A DNA stretch of 64,000 nucleotides from Empedobacter sedimenti (GTDB lineage: Bacteria > Bacteroidota > Bacteroidia > Flavobacteriales > Weeksellaceae). The position numbers and the translations under genes are program-made. The notes beneath the pieces were generated by a model, which was not told where the DNA came from, did not search any database, and saw nothing but the letters and a program-made list of their open reading frames with translations. The stretch lies in contig NZ_JASCQG010000001.1 in assembly GCF_030005555.1 (NCBI RefSeq), positions 124,001 to 188,000 of the forward strand. Reading direction: 5' to 3'. This document shows, one piece after another, positions 4,397-11,401 of this stretch (position 1 is the first letter of the stretch; each line of letters opens with the position of its first letter).

Positions 4397-5478
4397 GATT
4401 TAATAATCATTGCATTAGCAGAAGTTTCGTAGAAAATTATCGCTAATAATTGTAAAAATTCAGCATGATTTAGTTTTCCTGCAACTACTTTTTCAATATC
4501 CGCTTCATAATATTCTTCAATCGTTTTAGTTATCAGGGCTTTAAAATTATCCAACGGAATATTTTGATCTTTCAATTCATTTAATAAATAATTATCCGAA
4601 GCTAAAAAGTCTGCACGAGTTCCGAAAATAGGAGATTTACGAATGTTCAAGGCATTGTGGAAAGTTTGCGAAATCAAAACACCACGTTCCAACTCTTCGA
4701 ATTCCCAACCTTTACGAACTCTTCTCGGATTATTTTCATAAAAAATATGGTTGTGAAAAGCGTGTACATGTTTCGCAATATCTGTGTTGGTATGTAAATA
4801 AAGGAACTGCAAAATTGAACTAAACAAATGGTTTGCGTTCAGATTTGCTGGATAATATGTGTACAATAATGGATAATGAAACAATGTTGTGTACAACGGT
4901 GAAAAACTATCAATAATATTTAAATTCAACACATTTATTGCTTCAAAATCTACTTTCTGATTTGTTTGATAATAATTAATTCCAGCCAAATAAATATCCT
5001 CATAACTCAATTCAAATTGATTAAGATACGCTCCAATTTGTTTGAAAAATGATGTATTTAAATTATGATTTGTAACTAATTTATATTGTTTATTTTCAAA
5101 TTTTTTAATAAAATCTAACTTAAACTCAGACTTTAAATTATCATTGATAACTTTATCAAAATCAAATGATTTCTTTCTAATTACATTGACATAAATTTCG
5201 TTGTATGTATAAATAATTTGCTTGATTGGTGCTGTGTCTAAAGCTTCAAAAGGATTGATGTCAGCATTTGGCGTAGCATACAACGTAAACAAACGACGAA
5301 ATTCTTGCTGAATCTTTCCTTCTTCCGCAAACATATTCATCAATTGATTGGTGTTCGCAGCAATAATACTTTCACCTAAAAAAAATAAAATACCAGCTTT
5401 CAAATCTTCATCAAAACCACATCTTTCAAGGGTTTGATCAAAATAAGTTTTGAATGGATTTTCAGGATTTTGGCTCAT
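4384..5478 (-). CDS. Hypothetical 364-residue protein
   Basis: Start chosen at ATG 5478 (MSQNPENPFKTYFDQTL); a 26-residue longer frame to 5556 would run into the aldo/keto reductase terminator at 5542-5569. The protein is soluble and mostly helical, with many aromatic residues and a HVHAFHNHIFYE histidine-rich stretch followed by NNPRRVRKGWEFEE, where conserved catalytic or binding residues might sit. No signal peptide or membrane helix. Overlaps the downstream 87-residue gene by 13 bases. I do not recognise the family and offer no function. Confidence 0.7.
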   Translation of the reverse strand: MSQNPENPFKTYFDQTLERCGFDEDLKAGILFFLGESIIAANTNQLMNMFAEEGKIQQEFRRLFTLYATPNADINPFEALDTAPIKQIIYTYNEIYVNVIRKKSFDFDKVINDNLKSEFKLDFIKKFENKQYKLVTNHNLNTSFFKQIGAYLNQFELSYEDIYLAGINYYQTNQKVDFEAINVLNLNIIDSFSPLYTTLFHYPLLYTYYPANLNANHLFSSILQFLYLHTNTDIAKHVHAFHNHIFYENNPRRVRKGWEFEELERGVLISQTFHNALNIRKSPIFGTRADFLASDNYLLNELKDQNIPLDNFKALITKTIEEYYEADIEKVVAGKLNHAEFLQLLAIIFYETSANAMIIKSWKN

Positions 5479-5600: not shown

Positions 5601-6440
5601 TTAAAATTCAACCATTGAAGGATTCAATCCAGAAAAACCGTCAGCAGGCATTTCGTCAATCGCTTTTACATCTTCTGCACTCAATTTAAAATTATTTGAA
5701 GTCAAATTAGCTTCAATATTTTTTTCTGAAGAGGAGCGAGGAAGTGGTAAAATTTCTTTCGCCAAGCAATAATTAATACAAATTTGACCAACCGAAACAT
5801 TGTATTTATCTGCCAAAGAAACAATTAATTCGTTCTCCAAAATTCGTCCAGAACCCAATGGACTCCAGGCTTGTACTAGTAAATTGTGTTGTTTACAAAA
5901 ATCCACTAATTCTGGTTGCGAATGACCTGGATGAATCTCAATTTGATTAACCATAGGTTTGATTTCAGCCGTTTCAAATAAAGCTTCCAAATGATTGATA
6001 TTGAAATTACTTACACCAATAGCTTTTGCTTTTCCAGATTTGTAAATTTCCTCAAAAGCACGCCAAGTTCCGGCATTCAATTCTGCCCAATTATCAGGAA
6101 ATTGTGATTCATTTGCAGGCCAATGAATTAAATATAAATCCAAGTAATCTGTCTGTAAATCAGCTAAAGTTTGCTCAAATGCAGCCATTGCTTTTTCGTA
6201 TCCACGCTCAGTATTCCAACATTTAGACGTAATAAATAATTTGCTACGATCTACATTTTCAGCTTTTAGTACAGCACCAATTTCTTTTTCATTTTTGTAA
6301 ATTGTTGCCGTGTCAATATGTGTATATCCTTTTGCTAGTGCTATTTTTAGAGGTTCTGTAACTTTTTCACCTTCTAATAACCATGTTCCAAATCCGATTG
6401 CAGGAATTTCGATTCCGTTTGATAGTTTAAAGTTTTCCAT
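5601..6440 (-). CDS. Aldo/keto reductase
   Basis: A 279-residue NADPH-dependent oxidoreductase of the AKR superfamily, expected to reduce aldehydes or ketones in the cytosol. Start is the ATG at 6440 (MENFKLSNG); the frame extends three codons to a TTG. The catalytic tetrad is complete: D43 (HIDTATIY), Y48, K73 (FITSKCWN) and H106 (YLIHWP). The VSNFN and LPRSSSEKN motifs for cofactor pyrophosphate and 2'-phosphate are present. Length and sequence fit the AKR5/2,5-diketo-gluconate reductase type. It is monocistronic, with its own promoter and terminator. Natural substrate unknown. Confidence 0.92.
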   Translation of the reverse strand: MENFKLSNGIEIPAIGFGTWLLEGEKVTEPLKIALAKGYTHIDTATIYKNEKEIGAVLKAENVDRSKLFITSKCWNTERGYEKAMAAFEQTLADLQTDYLDLYLIHWPANESQFPDNWAELNAGTWRAFEEIYKSGKAKAIGVSNFNINHLEALFETAEIKPMVNQIEIHPGHSQPELVDFCKQHNLLVQAWSPLGSGRILENELIVSLADKYNVSVGQICINYCLAKEILPLPRSSSEKNIEANLTSNNFKLSAEDVKAIDEMPADGFSGLNPSMVEF

Positions 6441-6461
6441 TTTATTCAATATTTATAGATT

Positions 6462-6490
6462 CAAATTTATCTCAAAACAACCAATTTCAA
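6462..6490 (-). promoter_or_regulatory. Predicted promoter of the aldo/keto reductase
   Basis: On the minus strand: TTG at 6490-6488, 18-base spacer, TAAATTTG at 6469-6462, matching the Bacteroidota -33/-7 consensus. The box ends 21 bases before the chosen ATG. Confidence 0.6.
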
Positions 6491-6610
6491 TAATTAGTAG
6501 ACGTTAATTCTTATGTTAAAACTCATTTATAGAAATCTTAAATTTAATTGTTTGTTAATAAAATAGTTCTATATTTATTCTCGAAAAATGTTAGGTAAAA
6601 AGTTAGAAAA

Positions 6611-6913
6611 ATGACACAATTTACAGGTACGATTGAGGATTTTATGAATACACACGAAGAGTTTATCAATGCTTTGATTCTGAAAAAAATCAATCAACAA
6701 GTTGTATTAGATAAGAAAAATGCAGAAGATATTCAGCAAAATGAATTTATTCAACAAAAATTAGAAGATTTGAAAGAACATATGACTGATTTGTTCGAAA
6801 ATGAATTTGGTGATTGGGAAATTACAATGGATTTAGAATCTTTTGAGCAAGAATTTGATAAACATTTTCAAATTTCGAAGCAAGAATTAGAAGATAATGT
6901 GCTGTTGAAGTAA
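6611..6913 (+). CDS. Hypothetical 100-residue acidic protein
   Basis: A 100-residue, strongly acidic, all-helical protein (IEDFMNTHEEFINALILKK, KLEDLKEHMTDLFENEF, ESFEQEFDKHF). No signal peptide, no cysteines, no recognisable motif. It precedes the WYL regulator by 29 bases on the same strand and may share its transcript or be an independent small gene. TATATTTA at about 6570, one base off the -7 box, could be its promoter. Function unknown. Confidence 0.65.
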   Translation: MTQFTGTIEDFMNTHEEFINALILKKINQQVVLDKKNAEDIQQNEFIQQKLEDLKEHMTDLFENEFGDWEITMDLESFEQEFDKHFQISKQELEDNVLLK

Positions 6914-6942
6914 TTTATTTTAATATCTTCATTGGTTAGATT

Positions 6943-7845
6943 GTGAGAAAAACAATACCTATAATTCGTATAATTCGATTGGTACAATACATTAATGAAT
7001 GTAATATTAAGGAAATATTTCCTCTTAAAAAGGATATTATATCTCATATACAAAATCAGTTTCCTGATGAAATTTATAATATACAGCTGTTTAATCGAGA
7101 TAAAATAAAAATTAGAGAAGAATTAGGAATTGATTTAAAATGTAATAAAAAATATCAATATTATGTTGATGATTCGGATCAAGTTGGTTTGCTCGAGTCT
7201 TCTTTAGATTATTATGAGATGTTTTCTATTTTGACGCAAGCGAATGCATTGCCTGATATTTTTTTAATTTCAGACAGAAAACCATTAGGTTTAAATCAAA
7301 TTAACGATGTTGTTTCTCATATCAATAACAAACATGTTATTCAATTTAGTTATTCAAAATATGACACAAATGAGACAGAAGTACGTGTTATTGAGCCTTT
7401 GGTAATAAAAGAAAGTAAAGAACGCTGGTATATTATTGGAAATGATCATCAGTCGAATAAAGGTTTGCGAGCTTTTGGTTTTGACCGAATTTCTGCTGTT
7501 ACTTATTTTGGAATCAATTTCTCACCAAAATATACTATTGATGAAATTAAGGCTAAATATGATTCTTTATTTGCGATGTTTGACGCTGAAGATAAAGAAG
7601 TAGAGGAAATTGTATTGGAGTTTGATCAACGAGATGGAAATTATATCAATAGTTTTCCTATTCATCATTCTCAAGTTATTGAAAATATAGAAAATGGTGT
7701 TCGTGTAACTTTAAAATTAAAAACCACGCCCGATTTTGTAATGGAAATTATATCACGAGCATGGAGTTTAAAAGTAATTAGGCCAGTTAGTTTACGTTTA
7801 GAAGTTGCTGAAATTTTGAAAGATGCTCTTTTGAGAAATCAATAG
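6943..7845 (+). CDS. WYL-domain transcriptional regulator
   Basis: A 300-residue protein starting at GTG 6943; an in-frame TAG at 6937 leaves no earlier start. Residues about 1-60 are a degenerate winged-helix-like region (IIRLVQYINE, PLKKDIISHIQNQFP). Residues about 120-200 form the WYL domain: HVIQFSYSKYD, then RVIEPLVIKESKERWYIIG (the WYI is the WYL motif) and LRAFGFDRISAV. The last about 80 residues match the WCX extension. WYL proteins sense ligands, often nucleotides, and are frequent regulators of defence loci. It ends two bases from the convergent 105-residue gene. Confidence 0.85.
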   Translation: MRKTIPIIRIIRLVQYINECNIKEIFPLKKDIISHIQNQFPDEIYNIQLFNRDKIKIREELGIDLKCNKKYQYYVDDSDQVGLLESSLDYYEMFSILTQANALPDIFLISDRKPLGLNQINDVVSHINNKHVIQFSYSKYDTNETEVRVIEPLVIKESKERWYIIGNDHQSNKGLRAFGFDRISAVTYFGINFSPKYTIDEIKAKYDSLFAMFDAEDKEVEEIVLEFDQRDGNYINSFPIHHSQVIENIENGVRVTLKLKTTPDFVMEIISRAWSLKVIRPVSLRLEVAEILKDALLRNQ

Positions 7846-7847
7846 AA

Positions 7848-8165
7848 TTATTTAATCTTTTCATATTCAAACAAAATGAATTCTGAAACAGGTTTCCATA
7901 AAACAACTTTTCCATTGATGATATGGAATACTTTCGCGTGATTTTTTTCACCGAAATTTACCATTTGATTAAAATTGCTATCAAAATTTACAAGTTTTTC
8001 ACATTCATATTTCAGTCGATTTCTCGAAATTGGTTTTCCTTCCTTGTGTAATTCTAAATATTTTAAAAGGATTAGACTATTGATTTGAGTTTCTCCTTCT
8101 CGAAACCATTTTGGAACTCTTCTCTTTATTTTTTTTATTTCTTGTTCAGTCTTATCTAATAACAT
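7848..8165 (-). CDS. Hypothetical 105-residue basic protein, possible winged helix
   Basis: A 105-residue protein beginning MLLDKTEQEIKKIKRRVPKW. After a basic N-terminus, residues about 27-65 look like a helix-turn-helix arrangement (INSLILLKYLELHKEG, then RNRLKYECEKL), followed by a two-stranded wing-like end (AKVFHIINGKVVLWKPVSEF). That suggests nucleic-acid binding, by pattern only. It follows the 349-residue gene by 14 bases and is probably in its operon. It meets the WYL regulator tail to tail with two bases between the stops. Family not recognised. Confidence 0.6.
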   Translation of the reverse strand: MLLDKTEQEIKKIKRRVPKWFREGETQINSLILLKYLELHKEGKPISRNRLKYECEKLVNFDSNFNQMVNFGEKNHAKVFHIINGKVVLWKPVSEFILFEYEKIK

Positions 8166-8179
8166 CGTTTTATTTTTTT

Positions 8180-9229
8180 TTAGAAGTTTTGATTTAAATA
8201 AATTAATATTTCGTTTACGTCAGTTATACATTCTCTGTAACCGTTTTCGCGATAATATAATTTGGTCGGAATTTTGGACATAAAATGATCTTTTGATTTA
8301 TAACGATCTACCAACAAACACAAGAACAATTCACCTTTTTTATTTTTACAATTAATCAATTTATACTCAATGTTTTTTAAAGATTTATGAAAATACATAT
8401 TTGTAAAAAACGTATTAAATTCAGTTAGAAGTTGTGTTGTTTCTTTCTCATCATTTAACGAATCAATTTTTAAAGCAAGCAAGCCACCCGAAGTATAGAA
8501 CAGTGAAGAAGCATCTTTAAAAACCTCCTTAAAATCAAAATTCTCTAACTTGATAAAATCATCTTCATAATATCCAGAATAATGTTCTTTAATTAGTTTG
8601 AAAGGATATATTTTTTTAGAATTAAAAACAGAAAATAATTTACCCCAATAAGAAGAATCAAGATGTATAGGAGTTTTTAGAATAGAAATAATTCGAGATT
8701 CTAATGATTCTTTGTTGATGAAATACCAAAAGGCAGAAATATCAATTTCTTTAGTATTTCGATGAATACAAGTATCAACTATCGAATGAATATAAACTTC
8801 TTTTGCCAAACCGTTCAACATATCATCTAAAGATTGTTTCGAATAATTACCCAATTGATAAATTAACAATCGTTCATCATTTTTGATATTTTCATGATTA
8901 GATTTATCAATAACAAGATAAACTTTAAGTCCATTGTTTAATCTCGGATCTTTAAAAATCAAATGGCTAACAAAATAAGCTTGTAGATTATGCTCAAAGT
9001 TTGGTGTTCGAGAATCATATCGAAATTGAGCATGATTTCTTACGCTTGATTCTTTTGTATTAACAATAACTTGTCCTTCTTGTTTTAGAATATTGATATA
9101 ATTTCTTAAAAAAGAAAATGCATCTTTTCGAGCAACTAAAGGATCTTCGTTCTCAAACGAATTGATCGTTACTTCTTCTTTGCTTTGATCGAAAATTGTT
9201 TCGACTTCATAATGAAATTTTAACTTCAT
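8180..9229 (-). CDS. Hypothetical 349-residue protein in WYL/HNH block
   Basis: A 349-residue soluble, lysine- and asparagine-rich protein with no signal peptide or membrane helix. Visible segments are an N-terminal beta region (KFHYEVETIFDQSKEEVTIN), a central helical part and several cysteines (DTCIHRN, LINCKNKKG, LFLCLLVDR). I see no Walker, HNH, PD-(D/E)XK or methyltransferase motif. It heads an apparent two-gene operon with the 105-residue gene, next to the WYL regulator and the HNH-like gene. Composition and neighbours suggest an accessory gene; function unknown. Confidence 0.6.
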   Translation of the reverse strand: MKLKFHYEVETIFDQSKEEVTINSFENEDPLVARKDAFSFLRNYINILKQEGQVIVNTKESSVRNHAQFRYDSRTPNFEHNLQAYFVSHLIFKDPRLNNGLKVYLVIDKSNHENIKNDERLLIYQLGNYSKQSLDDMLNGLAKEVYIHSIVDTCIHRNTKEIDISAFWYFINKESLESRIISILKTPIHLDSSYWGKLFSVFNSKKIYPFKLIKEHYSGYYEDDFIKLENFDFKEVFKDASSLFYTSGGLLALKIDSLNDEKETTQLLTEFNTFFTNMYFHKSLKNIEYKLINCKNKKGELFLCLLVDRYKSKDHFMSKIPTKLYYRENGYRECITDVNEILIYLNQNF

Positions 9230-9319
9230 AATATGTTTATTTATTATTATGAAGCAAACTTATAACCTTGGTACTATCAAATAATGATAGTGGTTAAAAA
9301 ATTGTTTATGATAAATAGA

Positions 9320-9342
9320 AAACCCCAGCTTAGCTGGGGTTT
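9320..9342 (-). terminator. Intrinsic terminator of the HNH-like gene
   Basis: Perfect ten-base arms AAACCCCAGC / GCTGGGGTTT with a TTA loop, A/T-rich on both sides; four bases past the HNH-like stop. It is one of the more GC-rich stems in the window. Confidence 0.85.
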
Positions 9343-9346
9343 ATTT

Positions 9347-10126
9347 TTATTGTTTCAAGCTATAAATATTAATTATTTCTAATATTTCTTTCGATTTTTT
9401 TTCTGTAAACTCTGAATCAGTATAAGGAATATTTAAACTAACTATACTTTTATCTTTTTTCTTAGGAGCTATGTTAATTTGATTTCCTTTTATTTTAACG
9501 ATGGTAACATTAAAATCATATTGATTATAACATAGTAAAAAATAATCTGTTTTTAAATTTTTCATTTTAGGATTAAAATTCCAATTATCTTTTGAAATTC
9601 GAGCTATTGAACAATTCTCGTCATTCAGATAAGGATTTGAAGCAATTATGTAAGGCTTGATTGACTTTGATTTTGTTTCATATGTATTTATAATATGGTT
9701 TAGAGAGATTTCATCATCAGTTAATAATACAACATTATCTAAATCGTTCACTTTATTATTTAAATCATATTGTTTATGATGTTTTGGGCACATAAATTTT
9801 ATTACTTCAAAAAAGTTTTCATGTTTTTCTTTGAATTTTTTTTCAAAAATATCTAAATCAATTTTATAAGTTGTCTTTGAAGTTTTTTCTGCAAAATCAT
9901 TTAATATTTCCTGAATTAATATTTTACGTTCTCTTCCTTTAAGATGTGCAGCATGTAAACCTATGTATTTTTTACATTTCCCTCCATCTTCATTTAATTC
10001 ACCACATGAAACTCTATTTCCATATTTATTTTTGCGGTAAGGAAAAGCCAATTGAGTTACAATATCTGAAGTTCTTGGTCCTAGATAAGTATAAATTTCA
10101 TCTAATGTTCCTTCTAAAAATGCCAT
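9347..10126 (-). CDS. HNH-endonuclease-like zinc protein
   Basis: A 259-residue protein. Potential zinc ligands are C41 (SCGEL), C51 (GKCKK), C113 and H116/H117 (MCPKHHKQYD); H58 and H61 in GLHAAHLKGRER could supply the first catalytic histidine. The ending CPKHHKQYD is the usual close of an HNH/treble-clef nuclease. The central Asn normally a few residues before that cysteine is replaced (FEVIKFMC), so activity is uncertain. Residues after 140 form a separate basic region of unknown type. It has its own promoter-like box and terminator and sits next to the WYL block, consistent with a restriction-like or defence role (inference). Confidence 0.6.
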   Translation of the reverse strand: MAFLEGTLDEIYTYLGPRTSDIVTQLAFPYRKNKYGNRVSCGELNEDGGKCKKYIGLHAAHLKGRERKILIQEILNDFAEKTSKTTYKIDLDIFEKKFKEKHENFFEVIKFMCPKHHKQYDLNNKVNDLDNVVLLTDDEISLNHIINTYETKSKSIKPYIIASNPYLNDENCSIARISKDNWNFNPKMKNLKTDYFLLCYNQYDFNVTIVKIKGNQINIAPKKKDKSIVSLNIPYTDSEFTEKKSKEILEIINIYSLKQ

Positions 10127-10185
10127 AATTCTATAAAAATTAAATTAATATTTAATAACGATTAAATATAGTTGTATTAATTATA

Positions 10186-10193
10186 CAAACATA
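10186..10193 (-). promoter_or_regulatory. Possible -7 box for the HNH-like gene
   Basis: TATGTTTG on the minus strand (plus-strand CAAACATA) matches TAnnTTTG and lies 59 bases from the ATG. No TTG is seen at normal -33 spacing. Confidence 0.35.
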
Positions 10194-10249
10194 GAATTGT
10201 ACACGATATTTTTTGAGAATGAAATAGAATTTATTTTAATATTAATAAC

Positions 10250-11401
10250 CTAAACTCTCATAAAATCTTCTTCTAACAAGTCTTCTAAAGGACTTTGCAT
10301 CAAAGATTGAGGTAAATTTCGGAAAGCAAAATTTCGGATATTCATTAAAAATTTATTGTCAACTTGAGCAACTTTTCCAGCCAAACGAGAAGTGTCAATA
10401 ATATAATGTGTTCGTTTCAAACGGCGTAGATTGTAATGTTCAAAAGCTAATAAAACATCAGTATCTTTTTTGATTAATTCATCATACAAAACACAAACAT
10501 CTTCCACCGCCATGCATGCGCCTTGTCCCATGTTTGGTGTGGTTGCATGTGCTGCATCTCCAATTAACAATACACGATTAAATGCATAATTATTAATCGG
10601 TTTAATATCCATAATTGGCGTTGCTATGATACTTTCTGGATTTGTTTTTTGTAAAGTATTTCTGATTTGTCCCGAATAATCTTTGAATTGATTTTTAATA
10701 TCACTCAACGTATAGTTGTAAACTTCAGAATTTAGTTTTGTATTGACACAAGCATACCAATAAATTTGATGATTAATTAATGGCGTCAAACCAAAACGAC
10801 CATTCGGTCCCCATGTTTCGATGCTCTTTTTTGAATTGTAAGATTTATCTTCTACAATAGCACGCCAACAAATATAACCCGCATAACGAGGCGTTGACTG
10901 TTTCAATAATTGTTGACGAATTGTAGAATTTATTCCATCAGCACCAATTAAATAATCGCCTTCGGTAGTAGTTCCATCTTCAAAATGAAGGACAACTTTT
11001 TCAAAAGATTGTTCAAAAAACTTCACTTTTTTTGAAGTTTTAATTTTATTCGAATCAATTTTTGAAACCAAATAATGATGTAAATCTGCACGATGAATAG
11101 CAAAATTTTCGTTGTTGTAGTTTTTTCTTAATCGTTCGGTATCCGCTTTCAGAATTGTTTTCTCTTTCCAATCTTGAATTTCAAAATCTTCTAACATATG
11201 TCCCAAAGGCGCAACTTCTTCTGCTAAACCAAGAATTTCAAAGGCTTTCATCGCATTAGAAGCCAAGCCAAAACCAGCACCAATTCCACGAACTTTTGGC
11301 GAAGCCTCGAAAATTTCGAAGTCATAATTTAAATCTTGCAAAGCTTTTGCTAAAGTTAAACCTGCAATTCCTGCACCGGCGATTAAGAATTTTTTACTCA
11401 T
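10250..11401 (-). CDS. FAD-dependent monooxygenase (PHBH/UbiH type)
   Basis: A 383-residue class A flavin monooxygenase that would hydroxylate an aromatic or similar substrate with NAD(P)H and O2. FAD motifs are all visible: GxGxxG at G9-G14 (IAGAGIAGLTLA), the DG motif in YLIGADGINSTIR (about 155), and the GD motif LLIGDAAHATTPNMGQGA (about 280). Glu34 closes the ADP ribose site (FEIFEAS). Length is normal and there is no membrane anchor. It has a predicted promoter and stands alone. Close relatives include kynurenine-3-monooxygenase-like and TetX-like enzymes, so the substrate is open. Confidence 0.88.
   Translation of the reverse strand: MSKKFLIAGAGIAGLTLAKALQDLNYDFEIFEASPKVRGIGAGFGLASNAMKAFEILGLAEEVAPLGHMLEDFEIQDWKEKTILKADTERLRKNYNNENFAIHRADLHHYLVSKIDSNKIKTSKKVKFFEQSFEKVVLHFEDGTTTEGDYLIGADGINSTIRQQLLKQSTPRYAGYICWRAIVEDKSYNSKKSIETWGPNGRFGLTPLINHQIYWYACVNTKLNSEVYNYTLSDIKNQFKDYSGQIRNTLQKTNPESIIATPIMDIKPINNYAFNRVLLIGDAAHATTPNMGQGACMAVEDVCVLYDELIKKDTDVLLAFEHYNLRRLKRTHYIIDTSRLAGKVAQVDNKFLMNIRNFAFRNLPQSLMQSPLEDLLEEDFMRV

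Follow-up and report, generated by a model that had tools for sequence, protein, structure and literature searches.

What do four adjacent genes of Empedobacter sedimenti have in common, and do they act together? The genes lie at positions 6,943 to 10,126 of a 64,000-nucleotide stretch of the genome (the window; RefSeq GCF_030005555.1, contig NZ_JASCQG010000001.1, positions 124,001 to 188,000) and encode a WYL-domain regulator, two proteins of 105 and 349 amino acids (aa), and a 259-aa HNH-like zinc protein. An initial annotation, made from the sequence alone, proposed that all four form an accessory or defence block. We found that the WYL, 105-aa, and 349-aa genes are a conserved unit, that the HNH-like gene is an unrelated passenger, and that the site they occupy is a real variable accessory island. 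The unit has the appearance of a mobile, WYL-controlled cassette around Schlafen-like proteins, and we lean modestly towards anti-phage defence as its most likely function.

The four genes are present at the positions and on the strands that the initial annotation gave, in agreement with the coordinates of the open reading frames (ORFs). As it had noted, only 2 bases separate the stop codons of the WYL and 105-aa genes, the window contains no tRNA gene, no direct repeat flanks the block, and a strong hairpin terminator adjoins the HNH-like gene; terminator-like matches numbered two (both strands of this one hairpin) compared with 0.7 ± 1.0 in shuffled sequences. The 349-aa and 105-aa genes are co-directional with a gap of 14 bases. 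The regulator was correctly recognized, with Pfam matches to WYL (E 5.3e-11, 42.8 bits) and WCX (E 2.7e-9, 37.7 bits) that both exceed the cut-off. The 105-, 349-, and 259-aa proteins had no meaningful match in Pfam, PADLOC, NCBIfam, or PHROGs.

That the WYL gene and the two genes facing it travel together is seen in a sister species within the genus (G496) and in a second copy within E. sedimenti. Window DNA matches G496 at 6001–6912, 6938–7865, and 7857–9351 (93–96% identity). Similarity breaks after 9351 and resumes from 10125; the break is exactly the HNH-like gene, whose place in G496 is taken by an unrelated 333-aa gene. Because similarity ends just beyond the hairpin, the hairpin marks the point at which neighboring genes are swapped. 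All three core genes are open in G496, with protein identities of 91–96% (92% for the WYL protein). In that genome, the longest WYL reading frame is overlapped by a 161-aa gene that other members of the genus also have (L073:146–1544), and the left-flank 100-aa gene is not among the listed open frames, though its DNA is 94% identical.

The second copy, which is decayed, lies on another contig of the source genome in the same gene order. Its WYL gene carries three in-frame stops (61% identity to the window WYL) and converges with the gene for a 112-aa protein that is 54% identical to the 105-aa protein; a 14-base gap follows, as at the window, and then a stub matching the C-terminal 28 residues of the 349-aa protein. 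Genes for HipA_C and AbiEii toxin proteins stand beside this copy. The HipA and AbiE gene pairs are enclosed by two 110-aa genes that closely resemble each other (L037:526–858 and 4666–4998, contig C11; YtxJ-like on visual inspection), an arrangement that would fit the duplication of a host gene during insertion. A WYL remnant occurs in a further genome of the genus (G475), in a corresponding neighborhood of genes that by eye are YtxJ-, HemH-, and transthyretin-like; the same 19-kb stretch holds a second WYL gene and genes read as McrBC, of which the McrB-like one has a Pfam AAA_5 match.

The HNH-like gene does not follow this pattern. Beyond its replacement in G496, it is absent at the second copy and at the Chryseobacterium and G1068 loci described below, and the terminator separates it from the 349-105 pair; we therefore rejected it as a part of the system. 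Among the genomes searched, the four genes do not co-occur elsewhere, whereas the three-gene core does, and the block as first drawn stands only in this reduced form. The HNH-like label itself is partly justified. The 259-aa protein is 31% identical over 137 aa to an unannotated 237-aa HNH-like ORF of the IncC plasmid pKAZ2 (L041:5001–5714), in which the zinc/HNH-type motif CxxC...AAHxKGRER...CxxCH..YD can be read by eye, but neither protein reaches the Pfam HNH models. A match in G041 covers just 53 residues of the 259-aa protein and was discarded as too weak.

The surroundings of the cassette vary across the genus. All 14 genomes searched contain the right-flank FAD gene. In 5 of these (G509, G505, G501, G491, and G453), the site is empty, the FAD gene and the left-flank 100-aa gene being immediate neighbors, which bears out the proposal of an accessory island. 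Three genomes carry other cargo at the site (G513, G484, and G517), two carry the cassette (the source genome, G000, and G496), and the remaining four (G465, G414, G475, and G436) have a different gene order and lack the two nearest left-flank genes. The GC content of 6914–10249 is 25.7%, compared with 30.1% for the window, and 7 of 304 segments of the same length are equally low.

Judged by its relatives, the 349-aa protein belongs with the Schlafen AlbA_2 proteins and not with an ordinary metabolic family, an outcome that the initial annotation had named as counting against its proposal. Among 395 genomes of the class, strong matches were confined to the source genome, and one distant match was upheld: a 385-aa protein of G212 that resembles the 349-aa protein in its N-terminal 200 residues (BLASTP 3e-9) and carries an SLFN_AlbA_2 domain after them. 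This N-terminal domain (the N-domain) of the 349-aa protein aligned with three other N-domains at an hhalign E of 3e-7. A profile search of 395 genomes of the phylum added G706, with a 213-aa protein that consists of the N-domain alone, and G894, with one of 392 aa (AlbA_2 at 1.2e-17); 179 genomes from the genus to which G706 belongs added G1068 and G1088, and 110 from that of Chryseobacterium oryzae added G1166. G1068 encodes tandem proteins of 350 and 356 aa, both with SLFN_AlbA_2 above the cut-off (1.5e-7 for the 350-aa protein), and the first of these matches the window protein across residues 25–346 (E 5e-10 for the single comparison).

Of 197 genomes in the family, 2 encode the 105-aa protein (the source genome, with two copies, and G496). 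Its profile, searched against 395 genomes of the phylum, recovered only the two copies of the source genome and a match inside an LpxB-like ORF (G158), which we rejected as chance. Across the searches, further matches were set aside as chance or too weak: one inside a glycosyltransferase-like ORF (G379), one interrupted by stop codons (G265), and two short ones (G696, 44 residues, E 0.007; G558, 47 residues with stops). Viral contigs contained no relative of the 105-, 349-, or 259-aa protein or of the G212 N-domain; phages and plasmids contained no relative of the 349-aa protein, plasmids none of the 105-aa protein, and phages none of the G212 N-domain. The initial annotation had suggested structure prediction for the two proteins, and this gave no usable fold: AlphaFold2 models built from two sequences had a pLDDT of 46.6 (105 aa) and 36.7 (349 aa), too poor for a fold search.

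By sequence comparison, related units, in which one or two 349-like proteins face a WYL protein of the same clade, recur at other loci and in other genera. We counted five loci at which 349-like genes converge with a WYL gene of this clade (the window, the decayed copy, the C. oryzae plasmid, G1166, and G1068), with G496 as a probable sixth; a row for G1144 with coordinates identical to those of the C. oryzae locus was treated as that locus and counted once. The C. oryzae plasmid locus (L045) encodes proteins of 326, 286, and 209 aa; a second Chryseobacterium genome (G1166, L107) encodes proteins of 337, 284, and 352 aa; and G1068 (L100), from another family, encodes proteins of 350, 356, and 177 aa, each set with a convergent WYL gene. 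The 349-like genes form a tandem pair in the Chryseobacterium loci and in G1068 and are single in Empedobacter. SLFN_AlbA_2 was identified in four relatives at these WYL-linked loci (the 286-aa protein of L045, both the 350- and 356-aa proteins of L100, and the 284-aa protein of L107). The window WYL protein is 39% identical to that of G1068 and 30% identical to that of the C. oryzae plasmid. A rough density-based estimate from the source genome puts the probability that a convergent WYL stop falls within 1.5 kb by chance at about 0.09% per locus.

The 326- and 286-aa proteins had no significant pairwise match to the window 349-aa protein. They are tied to it by position, by an N-terminal motif in the alignment, and by the Pfam match of the 286-aa protein; the 284-aa protein of G1166 matches both the 286-aa protein of C. 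oryzae (2e-57) and the 356-aa protein of G1068 (2e-10). The gene adjoining the WYL gene differs from locus to locus, encoding a protein of 105, 209, or 352 aa without a family or a 177-aa UPF0227 hydrolase, which shows that this position is exchangeable. In G1068, a 500-aa protein without a family match is encoded directly upstream of the tandem Schlafen-like genes (L100:6138–7640).

The N-domain also has a life outside such loci. No relative of the WYL proteins was found in any of the four stretches carrying N-domain genes without a WYL partner (G212, G894, G706, and G1088), of which that of G212 is cut by a contig end. In G1088, the N-domain makes up a protein of 174 aa, and the gene that encodes it overlaps another whose product matches GIY-YIG below the threshold (E 0.037; L101:6344–7343). 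In G706, the domain is a protein by itself, encoded close to a REase-ARP gene (L084:4683–5477), and in G212 the N-domain/AlbA_2 gene touches a DUF7255 gene. Since the N-domain also occurs alone beside nuclease-like genes, it could be a general adaptor and may be a general partner of nucleases.

Features of the cassette site and its flanks in the window
Feature	Position	Strand	Description
Left hotspot flank, 100-aa gene	6611–6913	+	Adjoins the FAD gene in the 5 empty-site genomes
WYL+WCX transcriptional regulator	6943–7845	+	300 aa, GTG start, convergent with the 105/349-aa pair
105-aa protein	7848–8165	-	No family; final gene of the pair, at the exchangeable third place in the cassette
349-aa protein	8180–9229	-	N-domain shared with proteins that carry Schlafen AlbA_2; C-terminal half AlbA_2-like but strongly diverged
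Candidate Bacteroidota-type -7 box	9255–9262	-	TAAGTTTG; upstream of the 349-aa gene; read from sequence; unchanged in G496
Palindrome, weak operator candidate	9273–9291	-	ACTATCA-N5-TGATAGT; occurs once in the genome as an exact match; G496 preserves the outer 6 bases of both arms
Hairpin terminator	9320–9342		10 pairs; between the HNH-like and 349-aa genes
259-aa HNH-like zinc protein	9347–10126	-	Passenger at the cassette site
Right hotspot flank, FAD monooxygenase-like gene	10250–11401	-	Present in all 14 genomes searched in the genus

The Bacteroidota -7 consensus is TAnnTTTG, and a candidate box of this type precedes the 349-aa gene. At the G1068 locus, the palindrome search returned arms of 9 nucleotides, equalled by 3 of 300 shuffles. 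The palindromes differ in sequence between loci and thus provide no common operator.

The content of the cassette points to defence, and we infer that it acts in defence and that RNA is its target. Among the defence neighbors that speak for this are the HipA_C and AbiEii genes beside the second copy. At other loci, the N-domain/AlbA_2 gene of G894 sits between a tyrosine integrase gene and genes for HsdM, a KAP NTPase, and HsdS, and on three plasmids WYL relatives share a stretch with DUF262 genes. These plasmid stretches (L044, L046, and L047) are candidate WYL-controlled defence operons in their own right. On a C. balustinum plasmid, a WYL relative directly precedes two GTPase genes, one annotated as dynamin-like.

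Several results weigh against this interpretation. PADLOC 2.0.0 returned only generic WYL models in the window, with AbiEii at 2.5e-5 over the WYL region, and in the relatives nothing more than WYL and weak PDC-S09 (0.012) and pAgo (0.005) matches. The palindrome upstream of the 349-aa gene was matched in length by 62 of 300 shuffles, which lies within chance, and as a WYL operator it is no more than a weak candidate. The WYL gene of G496 sits at the end of a separate contig, so its adjacency to the pair in that genome is presumed. The window 349-aa protein has no Pfam AlbA_2 match above the cut-off. When its residues 204–349 were compared with AlbA_2 alone, the hhalign probability was 0.5%, and shuffles scored as high in 173 of 1000 trials with a seven-row profile, in 9 of 2000 with six rows, in 22 of 2000 with each of two pairs, and in 1576 of 2000 with four rows. 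Because these statistics are equivocal, the AlbA_2 assignment rests on the near full-length match to G1068, and we call the region AlbA_2-like rather than AlbA_2. Finally, ordinary members carry conserved acids at the start of the AlbA_2 domain, the catalytic residues being those of mammalian Schlafens. The profile match begins at positions 19, 20, 19, and 4 in the WYL-linked members and at position 1 in G212 and G894; the catalytic acids seem to be eroded in the former.

The most credible alternative, although we regard it as unlikely, is a toxin-antitoxin-like addiction module in which the 349-aa protein would be an RNA-acting toxin, the 105-aa protein its antitoxin, and the WYL protein a regulator, so that the cassette would be kept by addiction and not for phage defence. 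The close spacing of the co-directional pair, the patchy distribution, and the HipA and AbiEii genes adjoining the decayed copy would all suit such a module. However, the small gene lies downstream of the large one, and proteins of 177, 209, and 352 aa substitute for it in relatives, which is unusual for a cognate antitoxin. In the decayed copy, the homologue of the 105-aa protein has survived longer than the 349-aa gene; an antitoxin of any kind might persist in this way, which leaves the matter undecided.

A WYL-controlled stress or RNA-handling operon outside defence, with an AlbA_2-like protein that binds RNA and with incidental mobility, is likewise improbable in our view and ranks behind addiction. 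AlbA_2 domains are common outside defence, the catalytic domain start is missing in most WYL-linked members, and the N-domain relative of G212 lies among genes read as molybdopterin synthesis. The variable site, the small number of carrier genomes, and the defence neighbors at several loci argue against this explanation. A single four-gene defence system that includes the HNH-like nuclease, as initially annotated, could appeal to the adjacency of the genes, three of them on one strand, and to the HNH-type similarity to the plasmid ORF, but it is highly improbable given that the HNH-like gene is swapped just past the terminator in G496 while the other three are kept at 93–96% DNA identity, and that it is missing from the other loci. 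Decaying cargo with no present function, to which the broken second copy and the WYL remnant in G475 might point, is just as implausible, with all three frames open both at the window site and in G496.

Anti-phage defence remains the reading that we favor, and we place the cassette in an already known kind, the WYL-regulated defence-type island, here with Schlafen-like proteins. CapW is a WYL-type regulator of defence islands. BrxR, another WYL regulator, is described as keeping a defence island repressed by way of inverted repeats, each of 11 bp and with a spacer of 5 bp, and a ligand is proposed to release it (PMC9122601). The window palindrome, itself within chance, has the same 5-base spacer. 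Like BrxR and CapW, the window regulator carries WYL and WCX behind an N-terminal region, adjoins a putative defence operon, and is patchy and mobile; unlike them, it is convergent with the operon and placed at its far end, and its operator is a weak candidate. No CBASS or BREX genes were seen in the fetched stretches.

Schlafen RNases, bacterial Schlafens among them, are described as defence effectors (PMC12839542, which cites a preprint by Taboada et al.). The 349-like family resembles the Schlafen AlbA_2 RNases in its AlbA_2 domain, and the profile of the 349 clade reaches human-type Schlafen 12 chains in PDB, albeit weakly (E 0.0012). It differs from them in an extra N-terminal domain of about 200 aa, in the loss of the acid-bearing domain start from most WYL-linked members, and in a window protein too diverged for Pfam. 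Schlafen-family RNases are named among the backup effectors associated with BREX, and Schlafen-linked systems are counted as tRNA-cleaving anti-phage modules (PMC12839542); compared with the BREX-linked Schlafens described there, the window family has no kinase or winged helix-turn-helix fusion. The protein of G894 linked to type I restriction-modification genes (L085:7823–9001) shares the N-domain, a similar length, and a C-terminal AlbA_2 with the window protein. Unlike the latter, it has an AlbA_2 that is complete from profile position 1, its neighbors are HsdM, a KAP NTPase, and HsdS, and its 16-kb stretch holds no relative of the WYL proteins.

No description of the cassette was found in the searched literature, which included PMC12839542 and PMC12851939 and excluded most subscription papers and all bioRxiv preprints. 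Within it, the WYL domain and Schlafen were mentioned together only in the context of BREX, and AlbA_2 and WYL only in unrelated work on trypanosomes. The cassette is probably a phage-defence set that has so far gone undescribed.

By analogy with BrxR, we propose that the WYL protein would control the 349-105 operon until infection relieves that control. Acting at a site that precedes the 349-aa gene, it would repress (or activate) the operon, and it would respond to a nucleic-acid-type signal of infection. An AlbA_2-like dimer would then bind or cut tRNA or other RNA, the variable third protein would serve as target selector, antitoxin, or second effector, and either the cell or the phage would be stopped. 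With the AlbA_2 start missing in three of the four WYL-linked matches, the domain may bind RNA or need a tandem partner instead of cutting alone; the active site would be either rebuilt by the dimer partner or dispensed with in a domain that binds RNA without cutting. More specifically, and tentatively, for we hold it to be possible rather than probable, the cassette could represent a new anti-phage system of Flavobacteriia in which a WYL sensor switches on Schlafen-like proteins that have an unnamed N-domain and function as homo- or heterodimers of altered AlbA_2 domains, together with an exchangeable third subunit that sets the target.

Mammalian Schlafens are antiviral RNases, and their bacterial counterparts have only recently been tied to phage defence. 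The cassette would provide a compact test object for two questions, the signal that WYL regulators sense and the role of AlbA_2 domains whose active site is eroded.

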